In this document: one piece after another, positions 7,851 through 35,147 of the stretch
Numbering within the stretch: the first letter of the stretch is position 1
Layout: each line of letters begins with the position of its first letter
Assembly (NCBI GenBank): GCA_013287855.1
Contig: JABDCY010000005.1
Coordinates: 19,338 to 54,484 of the forward strand
DNA length: 35,147 nt
Direction: 5' to 3'
Origin: Candidatus Babelota bacterium
GTDB lineage: Bacteria; Babelota; Babeliae; Babelales; Vermiphilaceae
Position numbers and translations under genes: made by a program
Notes under the pieces: generated by a model
The model's database searches: none
What the model saw: only the letters and a program-made list of their open reading frames with translations
What the model was told of the DNA's origin: nothing

Positions 7851-7867
7851 AAAACTCATGTGTGAAT

Positions 7868-8932
7868 ATGCAAAGAATAGTACAATTAACCCCTCCAGCT
7901 CTATCTGCAGAGCACATCAAAGAAAAAATAATATGCATTCGCGCACACCGCGAGCGCATATTTCAGATAGATGCCCAAAAGCTTCATGATAAGCTCATAA
8001 TCCATAATTATGGGCAAGGAGGCGCTGGCTGGACTTTCCTGTTTGGCTGTGTGCAAGAAGCAATCCGAAAATTTGAGCACGAAGTAGTACAAAATTCTCA
8101 CTACAAAAATAAACCCATAGCGGTTATTGGTGCTGGTTGTTATGGTCTACTCACTGCAATCATGTTGGCACGTAAGGGACACCGCGTGCGCATTATTGCC
8201 AAAGAAACTGAAAATCTCCCTTCGCACAAAGCTGCAGGTCTCTTTTTTCCACGACCACGCAAATGTTCCACGCAAGAAGAAATTGCTCAATTTTATGCAC
8301 GGGGCATGGAATCATATAGTGCTTATCTACAGATCATTGATGGCAGTCACCCTTTTATCAACCGTGGACCACAATTATTACCTGCCTATTTTGGACGCGA
8401 GATTGATCCAGGTTTTGGTCCTTACATTGCTGCAGGGCTCATCAAGCAACCAGAAGCAGTTACCATCAATTTTGGCAACAGCAAAAATTATGATGCGCTC
8501 GAGCACAGGATTGTTTACCTTAATGCCACAATTCTCATGCAAGAACTGTGGCGCACTATCAAAGAACTTGGAATATCGATTATCAAACAAGAAATAGCTA
8601 ATTTCGCAGACATTGAAGAATCAATTATTTTTAACTGTGCAGGTCTCGGAGCTAAAAAACTAACGGGTGATGCCAAAATTATTCCCGTGCAAGGGCACCT
8701 GATTACTTTGCAGCAGCAGCCAATCGAACAACTGCAGTATCTCATTAACTTCCAAGTTACCATGACTGATGAGCGAGGCGGACACCGAGAAGAGATAATT
8801 TATTTTGCACCCAAAGGAGATGGTATCGTTGGCACTACTTTTTTGCGGGGGACTGATTCGCCAACAGCCAATCAGCATGAATTCGATCGCTTGATTGAGC
8901 GATGCCGCAATTTTTTTGGTACAAATTTCTAG
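7868..8932 (+). CDS. D-amino-acid-oxidase-like FAD oxidoreductase with circularly permuted domain order
   Basis: The protein is about 354 aa. Residues about 22-68 (IICIRAHRERIFQI ... IIHNYGQGGAGWTFLFGC) match the motif that normally closes D-amino acid oxidases (ICxRPxR ... VIHNYGHGGxGxTxxWG). Here it comes first, and the FAD-binding Rossmann start (IAVIGAGCYGLLTAIMLARK, glycines at 88-93) follows. The rest is in normal order: KAAGLFFP, IIFNCAGLGAKKL, VQGHLITL, then YFAPKGDGIVGTTF and a final helix. All DAO parts are present, so this looks like a circular permutation, not a truncation. An in-frame GTG two codons upstream (7862) is an alternative start; neither has a strong SD. It is third in the ybaK operon. 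The substrate is unknown. Confidence 0.82.
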   Translation: MQRIVQLTPPALSAEHIKEKIICIRAHRERIFQIDAQKLHDKLIIHNYGQGGAGWTFLFGCVQEAIRKFEHEVVQNSHYKNKPIAVIGAGCYGLLTAIMLARKGHRVRIIAKETENLPSHKAAGLFFPRPRKCSTQEEIAQFYARGMESYSAYLQIIDGSHPFINRGPQLLPAYFGREIDPGFGPYIAAGLIKQPEAVTINFGNSKNYDALEHRIVYLNATILMQELWRTIKELGISIIKQEIANFADIEESIIFNCAGLGAKKLTGDAKIIPVQGHLITLQQQPIEQLQYLINFQVTMTDERGGHREEIIYFAPKGDGIVGTTFLRGTDSPTANQHEFDRLIERCRNFFGTNF

Positions 8933-11106: not shown

Positions 11107-11191
11107 AGCACTAATTCCTTACAAAAAAATTGCGTCCTTACTAAACTAATCCTGTTCAGAAAATAGGAGCAAATGCAAGAAGGAGAATGTC

Positions 11192-11800
11192 ATGTCGAAA
11201 AAATTAATAATTTTTTTCATATTGTGTGTGGTACTCTGCATCCCTTTGGTATTTTCCAGAAAATTTCAACAAGCTGATCTCAATACCATTGTGCAACAGT
11301 CTATCCAATTGCCCGAAGAACAACGTCTTGATTTCATTTTACAAGAACTCAACAAAAAATATGGTACCACAACAAGGCCCAACTTCCATTTGTTCAATGG
11401 GGGTGGCGCTTTTGGCATCATCGGACTCGTGTATGCTTCGTTGAATGAATATCTTATTATTTTTGGCTCGGTGCTGCCCAATGGCGGCCATTCCGGCAGA
11501 TATTTCCTGAACTTCTCAGATTTTGTGTACCGCGGCAAAATCACGATCGCTTCACCAAAAGAATTAGAAGGCCGAGAAGTGAAAGAAGGACAAGCAACCT
11601 ATATGGCATGGGGTGATGCACACCATTATACCCTCGATAAAAATACCTGGATGGTTGAACATGCTCATGGGCTCACCATTTCAGGGTTGCCAATTATGAT
11701 AGCAAGTATTTTCACGACGACTGATATAGTTGCAATAGGATATTTAGTTTTTGATTATGTAAAGCATGTGGTGAAAAGTTTGATCGAAACAATATTTTAA
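11192..11800 (+). CDS. Sigma-1 receptor / ERG2 C8-C7 sterol isomerase family protein
   Basis: The 202-aa protein resembles human sigma non-opioid receptor 1 and fungal ERG2 along most of its length. There is one N-terminal membrane helix (about 4-22). [21 protein letters not shown] parallels the sigma-1 stretch [40 protein letters not shown] (about 92-110) parallels the GxxGHSGRY...SD motif, and [11 protein letters not shown] (150-160) parallels PNTWMVEYGRG. Asp110 and Glu156 align with human Asp126 and Glu172, which contact the ligand amine, and Tyr87 and Arg103 are also kept. The C-terminal membrane-associated helices are present. The SD AAGGAG lies six bases before the ATG. No other sterol gene is in the window. 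Role unknown; acquisition from a eukaryote is plausible. Confidence 0.9.
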   Translation: [202 protein letters not shown]

Positions 11801-12789
11801 CTACCTGTTTCCAGGCTTAAAGTTGTTGGTTTGTCGCTGGTAATTTCCATGCGCATTAAATCAACCATACGTGGCGTGCGATCATTATAGGTATGATAAT
11901 AATAGCGTTTATTATGCAGATCGCTTGCACTTGTCCATTGCGTAAATTCATATTCAACTTCACCGCCCTCTTTTTGACGTACTGAACCAAGTGGAATATC
12001 AAACAAATTAAGAATATGAAACGCTCTGCTCACCGCTTCTTGCTCACTCTTGATTTCTTTTGTACCTTGCGCAAATACGGTTGCGCGAACAAATCGAGAG
12101 GGTGAGGTAAAATCACCGGGCAAGCCAAGCAGCCCCGATCCTTGACCAAGTGGACCAAGATTGATAGCGCCAATTTGTACTTTTGGCACACTCAAAACTG
12201 ATAAATTAATATAATTTCTCAAATTAGTAATGTGCCAATCGAATGTTGGCGCATTAGTAAACACTCCCAGAGGATTGTCCGTCATCACAAGATTTCCGCC
12301 AACATATTCAATGACCAGACTATTGCCCGCTGCATCATGCACAATCGCATGCACGGGTGGCGTGATGCCCCATGCGGGCCAGATGGCATTAGATATCCGA
12401 ATTTTTGGCAATGCCTTGCGCACTTCATCAATCGTGGCAAAATTGCTCAATAGCCACGTGATCAACTCCCAGGGAGCAATCGAATCGGCAACTTGATCGG
12501 GAGAAACTACTTGATACTGCGCATATTCAGGAAAATAGAAAAGACCACCAGCAAGTCCACGCTCATTGACACCATCAATAATGCCAACAATATCAAAGGC
12601 ATTTGCGCCAACAACCGCATAGCGCGAGCGCCACTGCAAACCTTCTGGTTTGCTTGCAGGAGATGTGCCAATAAATTGATAATTGCGAGGGATCACAATT
12701 ATGTTAGAAGCTAAATCACGCGCAAATTCCAAGGTGCGCGCATATACTACTGCCCCATTTTGCGCTTTAAGCCTAATTCCAGTACACAT
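11797..12789 (-). CDS. Choloylglycine hydrolase / linear-amide Ntn hydrolase
   Basis: This N-terminal-nucleophile amidohydrolase family includes bile-salt hydrolase, penicillin V acylase and N-acyl-homoserine-lactone acylases. The 330-aa protein starts MCTGIRL, so Cys2 becomes the nucleophile after Met removal. Arg18 and Glu21 (YARTLEF) fill the R18/D21 region, Asn75 is in DGVNERGL, Asn179 is in VFTNAPTFDW, and Arg232 is in SPSRFVRA. The set needed for catalysis is present, except Glu instead of Asp at 21. No signal peptide is visible, so it is probably cytoplasmic. Its 3' end overlaps the convergent sigma-1-like gene by four bases. The substrate cannot be read from the sequence. Confidence 0.88.
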   Translation of the reverse strand: MCTGIRLKAQNGAVVYARTLEFARDLASNIIVIPRNYQFIGTSPASKPEGLQWRSRYAVVGANAFDIVGIIDGVNERGLAGGLFYFPEYAQYQVVSPDQVADSIAPWELITWLLSNFATIDEVRKALPKIRISNAIWPAWGITPPVHAIVHDAAGNSLVIEYVGGNLVMTDNPLGVFTNAPTFDWHITNLRNYINLSVLSVPKVQIGAINLGPLGQGSGLLGLPGDFTSPSRFVRATVFAQGTKEIKSEQEAVSRAFHILNLFDIPLGSVRQKEGGEVEYEFTQWTSASDLHNKRYYYHTYNDRTPRMVDLMRMEITSDKPTTLSLETGS

Positions 12790-14311: not shown

Positions 14312-15547
14312 CTACAACCCAAGTATTTGATTTATGCTCGTATTAGAGAAAATATTAAAGGGATCAATATGATTTTTGATCTCAGTAAATTTTATGAAAT
14401 TTTCTCCATATAATTCATTGCATTTTTCGTGATCCAAAAAATTAACCTTTCCCCAATGTGGACGACCGTTTAAAGAATACATAGCTTCTTCAAACGCTTT
14501 GAAAAATTCATAATATTTGGCTTCAGCATCAGTTCCAATATTCAAATACACCACATCATAATCGGCTGCAGGACTCAAGTAGGAATTCTTGTCAGCGCAC
14601 ACAAATCGACAAACTACTTCTTCAAGTGCAAATCCATTTTGTGTCCATTGAGGTACAAGCTTTTGGATAATCGCGATAGCTTGTGGCAGTAAGTCTAGTG
14701 GAACTGCAATTTCACACGCCATGCCAAGTTCAGTACTAGTATCCCATTGCAAGGCGTCATAACTAGTTTTTAAAGAAAGTGAAGAATTGGGTTGGACTTT
14801 TACATTTATTCGATGCCAACTATCTGCATAGACTACATCATCACGTAATTGCCAACGAAATTGAAAATAATCGGATTGTTGAAACAATTGCCGATATTGA
14901 GCAAGAAGTTCGTCTAAACTCATGGTTTTTTGCACATAGTCAAGCATAAAAAGTGGCTCACATTGCATAGTTACGCAATAGATAACTCCCAAAGTTCCCA
15001 AACTCACACATGCTGCTTTGAAAAGTTCTGGATTTTGTTGGGCTGATAAAACATGTACAACCCCATCGGCACTGATTAACTCAATTTCAGTAATAAAGCT
15101 TGATAACGTTCCTGAATGACCTGTGCCATGCGTAGCCGTGCATACTGCACCAGCTAACGTCATACCCCCCATCGCAGGAAGGTTTGAAAGCGCCAAATCA
15201 TAGTGAGCTATAGCTTTATTCAAGTCTTGAATTCGTATTCCTCCTTGAGCCCGCACGCGCAAAAGATTTTTATCCACAGATAAAATGGTATTCAGCCCTG
15301 TCATGTCAATCATATAGTCATCGGAACACGCAATGGCACTGAACGAATGGCCTGTGCCCATAACAGAGACTTTATGATGAGCTTTGGCAGCTTCTTTAAT
15401 AATGCTTATGAGTTCTTCTTTTGTGGTAGGATTCCATACTTTTTTGGGATTACACGACTGATTCCCCGCCCAATTGTGCCATTCTGCGAGAAGTTGATGA
15501 TTAAAAATTAGGCTCAGAAAAATGAGATAAGATTTTATGGATGGCAT
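14312..15547 (-). CDS. Exported aldonolactone oxidase-like flavoprotein
   Basis: The 411-aa protein belongs to the FAD-linked oxidases related to D-arabinono-1,4-lactone oxidase and L-gulonolactone oxidase, which oxidise sugar lactones. The FAD domain contains VSVMGTGHSFSAIA, whose His is the covalent flavin site in relatives, then LRVRAQGGIRIQDLN and GGMTLAGAVCTATHGTG. The C-terminal part has GRPHWGKVN and ends IDPFNIFSNTSINQIL, both typical of the subfamily. A signal peptide (MPSIKSYLIFLSLIFNHQLLA) predicts export. The ATG at 15547 is preferred over a GTG at 15553; the SD is weak. The electron acceptor and substrate are unknown. Two palindromic motifs lie just upstream. Confidence 0.85.
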   Translation of the reverse strand: MPSIKSYLIFLSLIFNHQLLAEWHNWAGNQSCNPKKVWNPTTKEELISIIKEAAKAHHKVSVMGTGHSFSAIACSDDYMIDMTGLNTILSVDKNLLRVRAQGGIRIQDLNKAIAHYDLALSNLPAMGGMTLAGAVCTATHGTGHSGTLSSFITEIELISADGVVHVLSAQQNPELFKAACVSLGTLGVIYCVTMQCEPLFMLDYVQKTMSLDELLAQYRQLFQQSDYFQFRWQLRDDVVYADSWHRINVKVQPNSSLSLKTSYDALQWDTSTELGMACEIAVPLDLLPQAIAIIQKLVPQWTQNGFALEEVVCRFVCADKNSYLSPAADYDVVYLNIGTDAEAKYYEFFKAFEEAMYSLNGRPHWGKVNFLDHEKCNELYGENFIKFTEIKNHIDPFNIFSNTSINQILGL

Positions 15548-15563
15548 GATCACTCACTAATTT

Positions 15564-15674: not shown

Positions 15675-16073
15675 CTATTTCTTCCGTGCATGAATAGTTT
15701 TAACACCAACGTTCTTGCGTGGTGCTACAGGCTTCTTGATAAACTTTGGCAGGCTTACAATCACGTTAGCTATCTTCTTTGATCGCGCTTTAGGAGTAAT
15801 ATTGATAGTGATGTCTTGTCCCAAAATTGTTAAAAAACGAAAAAGCCTTTCCAAAGAAAAGCCTGATAGCTTCCCGGTAGAAAGGGCTGATATTTTTGGT
15901 TGATCGATACCAAGCAGTTCAGCTGCTTGAATTTGAGTAAGCTTTTTACGTTTAATAAGTTTATTAATCTGAATGGCAAGATTTGTTTTAGCTAATCGTT
16001 CTTCAGAATCAGGAAATCCAAGATCTGCAAAGATATTACCTGAGCTTATAGTGTAATCTATTTTCTTTTTCAT
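15675..16073 (-). CDS. HigA-like XRE-family antitoxin
   Basis: The 132-aa protein contains a helix-turn-helix (KLTQIQAAELLGIDQPKISALSTG, about 45-68) followed by FSLERLFRFLTILGQDITINI, the standard end of HigA/XRE antitoxins paired with Gp49-type toxins. An extra basic tail of about 40 residues (Lys/Arg/Pro-rich, ending TIHARKK) is longer than usual. Its ATG shares one base with the toxin's TGA (TGATG), so it is translated by coupling. It probably binds the palindrome at 16451-16468 and neutralises the upstream toxin. Confidence 0.88.
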   Translation of the reverse strand: MKKKIDYTISSGNIFADLGFPDSEERLAKTNLAIQINKLIKRKKLTQIQAAELLGIDQPKISALSTGKLSGFSLERLFRFLTILGQDITINITPKARSKKIANVIVSLPKFIKKPVAPRKNVGVKTIHARKK

Positions 16074-16423
16074 CACTTATAACTTTCTTTATAAATTTCT
16101 TGAGCTCTTTGCAGTCTACTTTTTATAAGATCCATATCTTGTTTAGGCGTTGCTATACCATGCTTAGATTTTTTCTGAAACACATGCAACACAAATACAA
16201 CTTTGGGCATTCGAACAGTATAGACAGCACGATAAGTTCCAGCTGCATCCCTATCTATAAGCTCAATAACATCAGCTCCGCCGAATCCTTTAAGCACCTT
16301 ACCCTTTGGTGATTTTCCTCCCTCTTGAGCAAGACTTAAACCATAAACAAAAGCATCTACAGTCTCTTCTGGAAGCTTCTTTAGATCTTTTTCACTTGAA
16401 CCTACATAATACAATATCTTCAA
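16073..16423 (-). CDS. HigB/RelE-superfamily (Gp49-like) toxin with TTG start
   Basis: The 116-aa protein has ILYYVGSSEKDLKKLPEE at the start, LAQEGGKSPKGKVLKGFGGADVIEL, TYRAVYTVR, VLHVFQKKSKHGIATPKQD and a helical end. This is the full Gp49-like toxin, expected to be an mRNA interferase. The frame is open to 16630, but the family similarity begins exactly at TTG 16423, nine bases after AGAGGA, and no ATG lies in between. So TTG is the start. The toxin-first order with overlapping antitoxin is typical of HigBA-type modules. Confidence 0.87.
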   Translation of the reverse strand: MKILYYVGSSEKDLKKLPEETVDAFVYGLSLAQEGGKSPKGKVLKGFGGADVIELIDRDAAGTYRAVYTVRMPKVVFVLHVFQKKSKHGIATPKQDMDLIKSRLQRAQEIYKESYK

Positions 16424-16448
16424 TATTCTATTTCCTCTTATGAATAAG

Positions 16449-16477
16449 AATATGCCATATATGGTATAACATATCAA
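16449..16477 (-). promoter_or_regulatory. Promoter with overlapping palindromic operator for the HigBA-type pair
   Basis: On the minus strand, TTGATA (16472-16477), 17 bases, CATATT (16449-16454). The spacer holds TATGCCATATATGGTATA (16451-16468), a palindrome with one mismatched pair. It is well placed for autorepression by the antitoxin. Confidence 0.55.
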
Positions 16478-16566
16478 GTGACTGATGAAAACAATATAGC
16501 TATAATTGTTGTAGATATACTTCATTTGGGCAGTGAGGTAGCCTAAATCCACAGGAACTAAATAAT

Positions 16567-17073
16567 ATGAAACCCAATACCACAATTCACCCTGATCTTC
16601 TTGCCGCCCAAACGCTTGCATACAAACCAAGCGGATTCACGTATTCAAATCCAGTGCAAGAAGCAGAAAGCCAAGAATATGGTGCATGTGAGTTCGAGCT
16701 GAATAATCATCGCATCAAATTTCGGGTGGCAAAAATTACGCCAACAAAAATTGGCCAGTTTGTTACATTGTGGAAGAGAATTGAAAATGGCCCCATTGTG
16801 CCCTTCGATATGGCAGATCCAGTTGACCTATTTGTGGTGTGCGTCCGCAAGGGACAACAGTTCGGTCAATTTGTTTTTCCTAAAAACGTGCTGCATGAAA
16901 AAGGATTTGTATCAAAAGATGGAAAGGGTGGCAAACGTGCTATGCGCGTCTACCCGCCATGGGATATGGCGGATAGCCCACAGGCCAAGAAAACACAAAC
17001 CTGGCAGCTTAAGTATTTTTTTGAGATTCAACCTGCTATTGATGCGGAGATCATTACTTTTTTATTTTTTTGA
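16567..17073 (+). CDS. MepB-like protein
   Basis: The 168-aa protein matches the MepB family (named from the Staphylococcus mepRAB locus; biochemical role unknown). It has YGACEFELNNHRIKFRVAKITPTKIGQFV, then a central FVVCVRKGQQFGQFVFPKNVL split by a short loop, GKRAMRVYPPWD and TQTWQLKYF. AGGA lies about ten bases before the ATG. It diverges from the toxin gene, and its 3' end overlaps the convergent isochorismatase-like gene by 12 bases. No mepR or mepA is nearby. Confidence 0.82.
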   Translation: MKPNTTIHPDLLAAQTLAYKPSGFTYSNPVQEAESQEYGACEFELNNHRIKFRVAKITPTKIGQFVTLWKRIENGPIVPFDMADPVDLFVVCVRKGQQFGQFVFPKNVLHEKGFVSKDGKGGKRAMRVYPPWDMADSPQAKKTQTWQLKYFFEIQPAIDAEIITFLFF

Positions 17074-28179: not shown

Positions 28180-28419
28180 ATGAGTAAAAAAGACAAATTA
28201 ATCCAAAAGATTTTTGCGAATGCTCAAATTTCCTATGAGGATGCAGAAAGTATATTGCTTAGTCTGGGGTTCGCTTATACTGTGACAGGATCCCACCACG
28301 TTTTTAGAAAACTGGGCTATTTTAGAAATATTACCCTAAAAAAGAGATCACAGTTATTGACGTATCAAATTAAAATGTTAAAAGAGGTATTAATTTATCA
28401 TGGCTACTTACAAAACTGA
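28180..28419 (+). CDS. hicA: HicA-like mRNA interferase toxin
   Basis: The 79-aa protein of the HicA dsRBD-like fold shows AESILLSLGFAYTVTGSHHVFRK with the catalytic His in the GSH motif (His39), and ITLKKRSQLLTYQIKMLKEVL as the closing strand and helix. Toxins of this type cleave mRNA. It has a slightly long N-terminus (about 20 residues before the first helix motif). It overlaps the antitoxin gene by 20 bases. Confidence 0.9.
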   Translation: MSKKDKLIQKIFANAQISYEDAESILLSLGFAYTVTGSHHVFRKLGYFRNITLKKRSQLLTYQIKMLKEVLIYHGYLQN

Positions 28420-28798
28420 GAAAAAAACTGCTATCAAAAAAGACATAGATTACTATCTTGATTTGCCTTGGACATATACAATTGAAACGACCAAAGAGGA
28501 TGGCGATCTACTCTATATAGTTTATGTAAATGAACTTCCTGGAGTTGCAACAGATGCGCCGACATTACCTGAAGCGATGACATTAATAAAAGATGCTATG
28601 CGCGGAATTTTTAAGTTGTATCTTGAGCAAGGTGAGGAAATTCCCGAACCTATGCAGGAAGAACAATTCAAGGGCAACATAGCGTATCGCACTACAAACA
28701 GACGACATCTTTTGCTAGCCAAAGAAGCAAAAAAACGCGATGTATCCTTAAGTTCTCTGATTGATGAATGCATAGATAAAACTTTGCAAAGAAAATAA
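28400..28798 (+). CDS. hicB: HicB-like antitoxin
   Basis: The 132-aa protein has an N-terminal degenerate RNase H-like HicB domain (LYIVYVNELPGVATDAPTL, EAMTLIKDAMRGIF) and a C-terminal ribbon-helix-helix segment (RRHLLLAKEAKKRDVSLSSL and on). It should neutralise HicA and repress the operon. Its stop overlaps the start of the amidase gene (TAATG), which is unusual for a TA pair and ties the downstream gene to it translationally. Confidence 0.9.
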   Translation: MATYKTEKKTAIKKDIDYYLDLPWTYTIETTKEDGDLLYIVYVNELPGVATDAPTLPEAMTLIKDAMRGIFKLYLEQGEEIPEPMQEEQFKGNIAYRTTNRRHLLLAKEAKKRDVSLSSLIDECIDKTLQRK

Positions 28799-29996: not shown

Positions 29997-30099
29997 GTAG
30001 ATATGTTGGTATATTCAATCTTAGAAATTGGTCACGTGCAATTGGGGAAAATAATGTAGTATAATCATGTGCTCAAGTATTAAGCTACGTGGAGATTTT

Positions 30100-30420
30100 A
30101 TGATAACGCCAGAAATAATTGAAGAAGTTAAGCGGCGCCTTGTTGATGTCTATCAGCCAGAGACAATTTATCTCTTTGGTTCATATGCCTGGGGACAGCC
30201 TGACGATGAGAGCGATTTAGACTTATTGGTAGTGGTACGTGACTCTAAAGAGAAAAGCCATAAACGTAGTATTGTTGGCCGTCGCGCGCTCTGGGATCTC
30301 GATATTCCAAAAGATATTATGGTGTTTACCCAAGATGAATTTAATGCGCGAATTACAGACCCAACATCATTGCTGTATAAAATAAAGAACAACGGCAAGG
30401 TGATTTATGCCCGGAGTTAA
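30100..30420 (+). CDS. MNT-type nucleotidyltransferase
   Basis: The 106-aa minimal nucleotidyltransferase has YLFGSYAWGQPDDESDLDLLVVV, with Gly-Ser at 27-28 and metal-binding Asp39/Asp41, and a third acidic residue in LDIPKDIMVF. The ATG at 30100 (GGAG five bases ahead) is preferred to an ATG at 30067. It pairs with the downstream HEPN gene (14-base overlap). In studied MNT-HEPN pairs the MNT protein adds nucleotides to the HEPN toxin and silences it. Confidence 0.88.
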   Translation: MITPEIIEEVKRRLVDVYQPETIYLFGSYAWGQPDDESDLDLLVVVRDSKEKSHKRSIVGRRALWDLDIPKDIMVFTQDEFNARITDPTSLLYKIKNNGKVIYARS

Positions 30421-30820
30421 AGATTGGATTGCTAAGGCGACTGGTGATCTTAGAGCAGCAAAAAAACTCATAAAAGACGATGATTATACGCTTGACATGG
30501 CAGCTTATTCTACTCAACAATCTGCTGAAAAATCGCTCAAGGCCTACCTGATTTTTAAAAAACAAGCAATTCCCAGAACACATGATGTTGAAAAATTGTT
30601 AATGGATTGCATTAAACATGATAATACGTTTGATATTCTGCGAAAGGATGCTGAGCTTTTATCTCCATACGCCACATACACACGCTATCCAGACGATCGT
30701 TTTAATGTAGATCGCGAAGAAGTTGTTGGCGCAATTAACTGTGCCGAAAAGATCTTAAAGTTTGTAAATGCAAGAGTAGCATCAACTGAAAAAAATCCGC
30801 AGCTAGGTCTATTTGAGTGA
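30407..30820 (+). CDS. HEPN-domain protein
   Basis: The 137-aa four-helix HEPN protein has DWIAKATGDLRAAKKLIKDDD, MAAYSTQQSAEKSLKAYLIFK, IPRTHDVEKLLMDC and a late YATYTRYPDDRFNVD. The clear R-x4-6-H RNase motif of HepT-type toxins is not evident, so RNase activity is uncertain; it belongs to the broader HEPN family usually encoded beside MNT genes. It ends with a short polar tail. Confidence 0.87.
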   Translation: MPGVKDWIAKATGDLRAAKKLIKDDDYTLDMAAYSTQQSAEKSLKAYLIFKKQAIPRTHDVEKLLMDCIKHDNTFDILRKDAELLSPYATYTRYPDDRFNVDREEVVGAINCAEKILKFVNARVASTEKNPQLGLFE

Positions 30821-33809: not shown

Positions 33810-35147
33810 TTACATCTTCACTTCTTCTTCAACATCCCGCACATACGCTTTTGGACCAACCATGACGCGCATAGGAACCGAAATTTCTATGCCATGCTTG
33901 CGCAATTCTTTGACCATAGAAATTCGTACATCGCTGGCGATATCCCATTGCTCGAGCGTGTAATTTGAGCTCAAAAATCCACGCACCAAGAATTCAAACC
34001 CTGCTTGGGTAAAATTCTCAAGTCGAATCACGGGCTTTGGACTTTTGAGAATATATTGATGCTTATCAAGCACTGAGAATAAAATTTGTTTCACTTTTTC
34101 TGGATCTTCTTTGTAACCAACATTAATTACAATATCTTCAAACGCAAAAAATCCTTGTACATAGTTCCAGTTGGTTATCGGCTTGTTGAGCACTTGCGTA
34201 TTTGGCACCACAATGGTGTTGCTATTTCTGCGTCTGATGATCACCGAGCGCGGCGTAATTTTACGCACCACACCCATCGTAGTGTTATCGATCCAAATGT
34301 AATCACCAATCTTGATCGGGCGCTGCACCAAAATAATAAAATAGGCCATAAAATCGCTGATCGGATCTTTGGCAACCCAACCAATAGAAAGTATGAGAGC
34401 ACCGGTTAAGTACAAGACGAGCGAATCGAGCCCCACGCTGCGGAACCCAAGCATGATGGCGGCAATGACAATGAAATATTTGGTGAAGCTGGCAATCGTG
34501 TTCTGCACGCCAGAATCCACCAACAAGAGATCAAAAATGCGGCGCAGCAGAAACCGGTTGACCAGAATGGCGATAATAAAACCAATAAGACAGAAGAATA
34601 AGATTTGGAAAATGGAGAAAATGGTGACCGGTGGCACATCATGACCCAAATACACAATTGTGGTGCCAAGCCAATCATAGACTTCTTTGTACGAAATAAA
34701 CCAGCCCCAAATGCGCGCAATAATGAACATGCCCAGGAGCGCAACTACGGCAAATGATGCCATAATGAAAAGACCATACCAACTCTTGGCGTACACAAAT
34801 CGCTCACGCACCACTTCTTCATCGACCGAGAAGAAGACTTGCGACATGAATTTGCGCAAAATTTCGTACACAAAAAAGAGCGCGCGAATCAACACAACGG
34901 TGTACACGAGACCACGCAGAGCAAAAAGTACCAAGCGGCCAAATCCAACATAGGGATTGCTTAAGATGATGATCGCTACAATGAGCACAAAAATTGGATA
35001 GTAATAACTATCTACCGACTCGTGCAACCATTGCCAAAAAGCGCCGCGGCGTGGAATGAGACTCAACACAAATTCTTTAGTGATGAGCAACATCAGGCAG
35101 AGTTGGAAAATAATAATATTGAGCGCCAATAGAATCGCCGGAAGTTC
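33810..35147 (-). CDS. MscS-family mechanosensitive channel (5' end outside the window)
   Basis: 445 residues are visible and the frame remains open to the right edge (beginning ELPAILLALN), so the start lies beyond; a TTG at 35129 is only internal. Several N-terminal membrane helices are followed by the MscS core. The pore-lining helix region is LGFRSVGLDSLVLYLTGALILSIGWVAKDPISDFMAYF, and the beta domain has RPIKIGDYIWID, MGVVRKITPRSVIIRRRNSNTIVVPN and NWNYV. A cytoplasmic alpha/beta domain ends in HGIEISVPMRVM. These channels release solutes under hypo-osmotic stress. A decayed copy of its 3' end lies at 33129-33235. Confidence 0.92.
   Translation of the reverse strand, partial: ELPAILLALNIIIFQLCLMLLITKEFVLSLIPRRGAFWQWLHESVDSYYYPIFVLIVAIIILSNPYVGFGRLVLFALRGLVYTVVLIRALFFVYEILRKFMSQVFFSVDEEVVRERFVYAKSWYGLFIMASFAVVALLGMFIIARIWGWFISYKEVYDWLGTTIVYLGHDVPPVTIFSIFQILFFCLIGFIIAILVNRFLLRRIFDLLLVDSGVQNTIASFTKYFIVIAAIMLGFRSVGLDSLVLYLTGALILSIGWVAKDPISDFMAYFIILVQRPIKIGDYIWIDNTTMGVVRKITPRSVIIRRRNSNTIVVPNTQVLNKPITNWNYVQGFFAFEDIVINVGYKEDPEKVKQILFSVLDKHQYILKSPKPVIRLENFTQAGFEFLVRGFLSSNYTLEQWDIASDVRISMVKELRKHGIEISVPMRVMVGPKAYVRDVEEEVKM

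Follow-up and report, generated by a model that had tools for sequence, protein, structure and literature searches.

A highly divergent, full-length ERG2/sigma-1-receptor family protein encoded by one of 101 genomes of a bacterial phylum

The window, a 35,147-nucleotide stretch of a contig from a Babelota bacterium, contains on its forward strand an open reading frame that starts with ATG, runs for 202 codons without an internal stop and has an AGGAG ribosome-binding motif directly 5' of its start (AAGAAGGAGAATGTCATG). We refer to its product as P0001. On one side of it lies a gene for a 303-residue protein that matches no family, and on the other a convergent gene of the choloylglycine hydrolase family (CBAH). 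The features of the locus are listed here, with sigma-1 residues in human numbering from an alignment anchored on Tyr103, Asp126 and Glu172.

11179-11188, + strand: likely ribosome-binding site GAAGGAGAAT, from direct reading of the sequence
11192-11800, + strand: ERG2/sigma-1-receptor family protein P0001 (PF04622), 202 aa, from the open reading frame, profile search and model
11192-11260, + strand: predicted N-terminal export/anchor segment, model helix 3-16, from the AlphaFold2 model, hydropathy and alignment
11384-11671, + strand: beta barrel of the cupin type, with its strands within residues 65-160, from AlphaFold2/DSSP and Foldseek
11402-11416, + strand: GGAFG (residues 71-75), with the GxxxG spacing of sigma-1 G87-G91, from the alignment
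11519-11521, + strand: codon of Asp110, equivalent to sigma-1 Asp126, from the alignment
11657-11659, + strand: codon of Glu156, equivalent to sigma-1 Glu172 and invariant in all members compared, from the alignment
11675-11794, + strand: two C-terminal helices (162-175 and 179-201), equivalent to sigma-1 helices 4 and 5, which are membrane-associated, from AlphaFold2 and Foldseek
11797-12789, - strand: Ntn hydrolase of the choloylglycine hydrolase/penicillin V acylase family (CBAH), convergent with the P0001 gene and overlapping it by 4 bases

The family assignment was examined at the level of both sequence and fold. The Pfam profile PF04622 (ERG2_Sigma1R) matches P0001 with 118.2 bits (E = 4.2e-34) against a curated cut-off of 21 bits, and the match covers the whole domain, aligning residues 8-199 with profile positions 7-208 of 210. 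A phmmer search of the PDB returned sigma-1 receptors only (E = 4e-17 to 4e-15). The AlphaFold2 model, calculated with no templates from an alignment of P0001 and 24 prokaryotic relatives, has a mean pLDDT of 88.3 and a pTM of 0.83. When this model was submitted to Foldseek, the top 42 chains were sigma-1, the best PDB match being 5hk1_A (TM 0.89/0.85, rmsd 2.4), and generic cupins ranked far behind (E 3e-7). The initial annotation, made from the sequence alone, had called the product a sigma-1/ERG2 homologue laid out like sigma-1 and had proposed the profile search and the structure prediction as checks. Both bear it out: the model contains the N-terminal helix, the barrel and the two C-terminal helices in the order of the vertebrate receptor (SIGMAR1; 5hk1, 7w2b), and the peptides quoted in that annotation (one ending in SD, the other NTWMVE) are both found in the translation. 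P0001 is therefore confirmed as a true, full-length and intact, but highly divergent, member of the ERG2/sigma-1 family.

The genome that carries the gene is assembled into 1.12 Mb on 48 contigs and is 68% complete with a stated contamination of 0.28%. In the phylum, a PF04622 gene was detected by the Pfam HMM in one of 101 genomes, and a second profile run on the same 101 genomes recovered this gene and two weak extra matches (E 0.02 and 0.5). The former of these, in G022, was considered as a pseudogene copy and dismissed as chance noise, as it overlaps another open reading frame. A lone occurrence in an assembly of this completeness is what a eukaryotic or foreign-bacterial fragment in the bin could produce, but this explanation is largely refuted and we give it hardly any weight. 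The gene lies inside a 54.5-kb contig, its GC content and codon fit are those of its neighbours, and the ArfB encoded nearby shares 53-66% identity with the ArfB of the same bacterial family. It is also a single unbroken frame with a ribosome-binding site, overlaps a CBAH gene that is typical of the family, and has nearby an ArfB gene and a D-amino-acid-oxidase-like gene that cluster with CBAH in the relative G004 as well, where another gene pair lies between ArfB and CBAH.

The CBAH product is nearest to penicillin V acylases and choloylglycine hydrolases and scores under both equivalog cut-offs. Bile-salt hydrolases have steroid conjugates as their substrates, and a functional operon of P0001 with CBAH was considered. 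We rejected it, because the two genes are convergent, CBAH falls below the equivalog cut-offs, and CBAH is also present in 5 of 28 relatives without an ERG2/sigma-1 gene. The window CBAH starts with Met-Cys, the cytosolic form, whereas in its G004 homologue the catalytic Cys is preceded by a signal-like extension at the N-terminus. An FAD enzyme at 14312-15553 was likewise tried as a DHCR24-like sterol reductase and set aside, since it matches aldonolactone/xylitol oxidases instead. Several other genes deserve mention in their own right. The D-amino-acid-oxidase-like (DAAO-like) FAD protein at 7862-8932 (+), with a counterpart at L042:10994-12202 (-), looks circularly permuted: residues 24-78 correspond to chain positions 325-379, at the C-terminus of DAAO, and the N-terminal FAD domain of DAAO corresponds to residues 83-289. 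The same order is seen in the sequence of the G004 homologue, which is 61% identical. Candidate toxin-antitoxin pairs are located at 15675-16630 (-; HTH_37 with Gp49-like), 28400-28798 (+; HicB-like antitoxin) and 30067-30820 (+; MNT-type nucleotidyltransferase with a small downstream frame), and an MscS-type channel gene at 33810-35129 (-) has a GC3 of 0.52, compared with 0.22-0.41 in the other genes tested.

To place P0001 among prokaryotic proteins, 84,980 prokaryotic genomes were scanned with two conserved peptide patterns, which more divergent members may escape, and 30 relatives were recovered. Most belong to Myxococcota (Plesiocystis and Enhygromyxa among them) or Mycobacterium, and others are from a small number of Bacillota, Pseudomonadota and Dadabacteria MAGs and from a single Lokiarchaeota MAG. 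The 30 proteins divide into a sigma-type group (n = 18, Asp at position 126) and an ERG2-type group (n = 12, Asp at 124 and Phe at 126). ERG2 has also been reported in bacterial sterol clusters (PMC9531527), the Calothrix sterol cluster has a gene for C-8 isomerisation (PMC10202945), and Methylotuvimicrobium has a C-8 isomerase (PMC13277303). The rarity that the initial annotation implied for a bacterial homologue is therefore overstated: with at least 30 other prokaryotic members and with bacterial ERG2 already published (PMC9531527, PMC10202945), family membership of a bacterial protein is not unexpected in itself. What is unusual is the setting of the gene, in a reduced genome in which no sterol genes were found and in one of 101 genomes of its phylum.

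P0001 differs from all of these relatives at its N-terminus. Its best 15-residue mean hydropathy in this segment is 3.4, compared with at most 1.1 in the 30 relatives, none of which (0/30, as annotated here) has an N-terminal hydrophobic segment. Judged by sequence, no other prokaryotic member recovered has a predicted N-terminal export/anchor helix like that of P0001; eukaryotic sigma-1 and ERG2 are built in this way. Among the relatives themselves, the sigma-type protein of the Lokiarchaeota MAG (L002:5950-6633, +) has its hydrophobic segment at the C-terminus rather than the N-terminus and is neighboured by genes for a ClpB-like ATPase and a LuxE-like acyl-protein synthetase; if it is not a binning error, it bears on the origin of the eukaryotic protein. 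Several Mycobacterium species (L005-L009, L011) share a conserved sigma-type protein. In M. colombiense, the genes sampled around it encode a transaldolase, an acetyltransferase and an alpha/beta hydrolase, and none is a sterol gene. Two Bacillota (Clostridia-type) MAGs have a sigma-type member (L020:5974-6546 and L028:212-841), the former adjoined by ordinary bacterial genes.

The residues that line the sigma-1 pocket are partly kept in P0001. By docking, sigma-1 ligands contact Asp126, Glu172, Tyr103 and His154 (PMC9962145). Retained residues are Tyr87 (human 103), Phe91 (107), Ser101 (117), Tyr104 (120), Asp110 (126), Glu156 (172), Leu166 (182) and Tyr189 (206), along with the NTWMVE and GHSGRY motifs and the GxxxG spacing, which in sigma-1 has a role in oligomerisation. 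The equivalents of Glu172 and Tyr103 are invariant in the 30 prokaryotic members, human and Xenopus. Replaced residues include Trp89, His154 and Trp164 of the sigma-1 drug pocket, which are Ala73, Met138 and Leu148 in P0001, as well as Thr181 (Gly), Ile178 (Thr) and Ala185 (Met); Thr202 is Leu in P0001 and Thr in all other sequences compared. P0001 resembles vertebrate sigma-1 in its fold and its acidic pair, while it is only ~29% identical, lacks the drug-pocket residues Trp89, Trp164, His154 and Thr181, and has a pre-barrel loop ~4 residues shorter.

The position of one acid separates P0001 from ERG2. Asp110 and Glu156 were originally proposed to align both with the sigma-1 pair and with acidic residues of ERG2; the first part stands for both residues, but Asp126 matches no ERG2 acid. 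Position 126 is Asp in P0001 and in 18/18 sigma-type bacterial members, and Phe in 12/12 ERG2-like bacterial proteins, which have an Asp two positions earlier. Yeast ERG2 presumably follows the same pattern with no acid at sigma-1 position 126; P0001 has 'NFSDF' where yeast has 'DDYF'. The ERG2-type Asp-x-Phe (Asp 124, Phe 126) is reversed in P0001, with Phe108 and Asp110. P0001 and fungal ERG2 nevertheless share the Pfam family, a similar length, an N-terminal hydrophobic segment, and the residues Glu174 (Glu156 in P0001) and Tyr105, which correspond to Glu172 and Tyr103 of sigma-1 (PMC8230181). With the 18 sigma-type bacterial loci (Plesiocystis, Mycobacterium, Myxococcota MAGs and others), P0001 shares both acids, SGRY and MxE at no more than 35% identity; unlike them, it lacks the GK[ILV] tail that nearly all of them have. 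With the 12 ERG2-like loci (Enhygromyxa, Polyangiales) and the published sterol-cluster ERG2 it shares the family, the fold and the Glu172 equivalent, and several of the organisms with an ERG2-like member are reported as sterol makers. The vertebrate sigma-1 receptor, which has the same Asp/Glu pair, is not known as a sterol isomerase, and the pair in P0001 is therefore no proof of catalysis.

Phylogenetic analysis, done without protist sequences, gave P0001 a very long end branch of 5.3 changes per column, and its ligand may for this reason differ greatly from those of its relatives. In the free tree, P0001 groups on this extremely long branch with all of the sigma-type rows (100/99.8), but the test does not reject a placement with the ERG2-type (p-AU 0.27). 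A grouping with the vertebrates has a support of 74/35, and one with the bacterial sigma-type members a p-AU of 0.735. The best pairwise scores are with Loki and Plesiocystis/Mycobacterium proteins (84-88 bits), and human scores 65 bits. With so long a branch and no protist sequences to compare, the phylogeny names no donor, whether eukaryotic or bacterial. A viral carrier is unsupported, as no relative was found on viral contigs and the BFVD fold matches were generic cupins only. The long branch, together with the loss of several family-conserved residues, could also point to an acquired gene that is decaying or neutral and now serves no function. We regard this as very improbable, since the frame is full-length, the invariant residues including Glu156 are intact, and a high-confidence fold and an intact ribosome-binding site are retained.

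The sigma-type Asp126 signature in place of the ERG2-type 'DYF', the grouping with the sigma-type rows and the retained GxxxG spacing also fit a binder or chaperone, which would capture a host amine or lipid (e.g., a sphingoid base or a steroid) or stabilise membrane proteins, with no catalysis. However, the drug-pocket residues are lost, no partner of P0001 is known, and in the literature found the bacterial function of sigma-type members is undescribed; we judge such a role to be a minority possibility, although a serious one.

No squalene synthase, cyclase, P450, EBP isomerase or ERG4/24 reductase was found in the 68% complete genome or in its family. The earlier statement that the window holds no sterol pathway is thereby borne out and extends to the whole bacterial family, and a sterol pathway in this genome is very unlikely, even when its incompleteness is allowed for. 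P0001 might instead act on an isoprenoid lipid of its own envelope, polyprenyl or other, with no role in a host. Many prokaryotic sigma-type members come from bacteria not known as parasites, and the sampled neighbours of their genes are not sterol genes, both consistent with this idea. Nonetheless, it appears improbable to us, because the gene is missing from all of the 100 other genomes of the phylum that were searched, which argues against a core lipid function, and squalene synthase and phytoene synthase are both absent from the family.

The premise of a host-associated bacterium, also made initially, has indirect evidence in its favour, in that relatives carry multiple ATP/ADP translocases. 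These were found in 48/51 genomes of relatives and in 40/40 of those of high quality, usually in several copies. In the genome of P0001, at 68% completeness, no translocase was found, for which the incompleteness may account, and no 16S gene was found either. The small genomes and translocases of the relatives and the size and structure of the phylum fit Dependentiae, which are host-dependent with genomes of ~1-1.5 Mb and several ATP/ADP translocases. The bacterium itself probably infects protists. Among these, Chromulinavorax has a 1.2-Mb genome, tlcC antiporters, signal sequences on 44% of its proteins and no lipid synthesis, and the use of host lipids has been suggested for Dependentiae (PMC6561590).

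Taking these results together, we propose, with about even confidence, that P0001 is exported, sits in or on a membrane and either binds or isomerises a sterol-like lipid of the host. The action on a host sterol or lipid that the initial annotation put forward is plausible as a hypothesis. The N-terminal segment would direct Sec export, leaving the barrel outside the cytoplasm, in or on the membrane; the C-terminal helices would admit a membrane-dissolved sterol-like or cationic host lipid into the barrel, where Glu156, together with Asp110 and Tyr87, may engage it. The likeliest use would be to shift a double bond of a host sterol by acid-base chemistry, as ERG2 does, with binding or sequestration as the main alternative. 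By analogy, the double-bond shift may be somewhat likelier than mere binding, because catalytic precedents with a single gene exist. In Coxiella, the outer membrane protein Stmp1 alters the cholesterol metabolism of the host (PMC8787468), and Legionella drancourtii has a sterol delta-7 reductase of eukaryotic origin (PMC2667531). Each resembles P0001 in its proposed role, as a lone sterol-modifying enzyme in an intracellular bacterium that lacks the pathway; unlike P0001, both are sterol reductases of an unrelated family, which was not found in the P0001 genome. Since the acid placement in P0001 is sigma-type and not ERG2-type, the isomerase reading calls for caution. As for the origin of the gene, it is likely to have been gained by its own lineage, or else lost repeatedly in others, and it was probably acquired horizontally.

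The split of the prokaryotic members into sigma-type and ERG2-type by the position of one acid leads directly to testable mutants. The physiological ligand of sigma-1 is still debated, and P0001 would offer a natural minimal case for the binding or catalysis of this fold where there is no sterol pathway. We suggest, tentatively, that this could be an obligate intracellular bacterium with an exported sigma-1-type receptor or isomerase, perhaps derived from a protist host, that would serve as a single-enzyme effector and intercept or isomerise sterols or sphingoid lipids of the host. Sterol reductases are found in the intracellular bacteria Coxiella, Legionella and Protochlamydia. If P0001 acts on a host lipid, it would add a second enzyme family to the few sterol-modifying tools known from intracellular bacteria.
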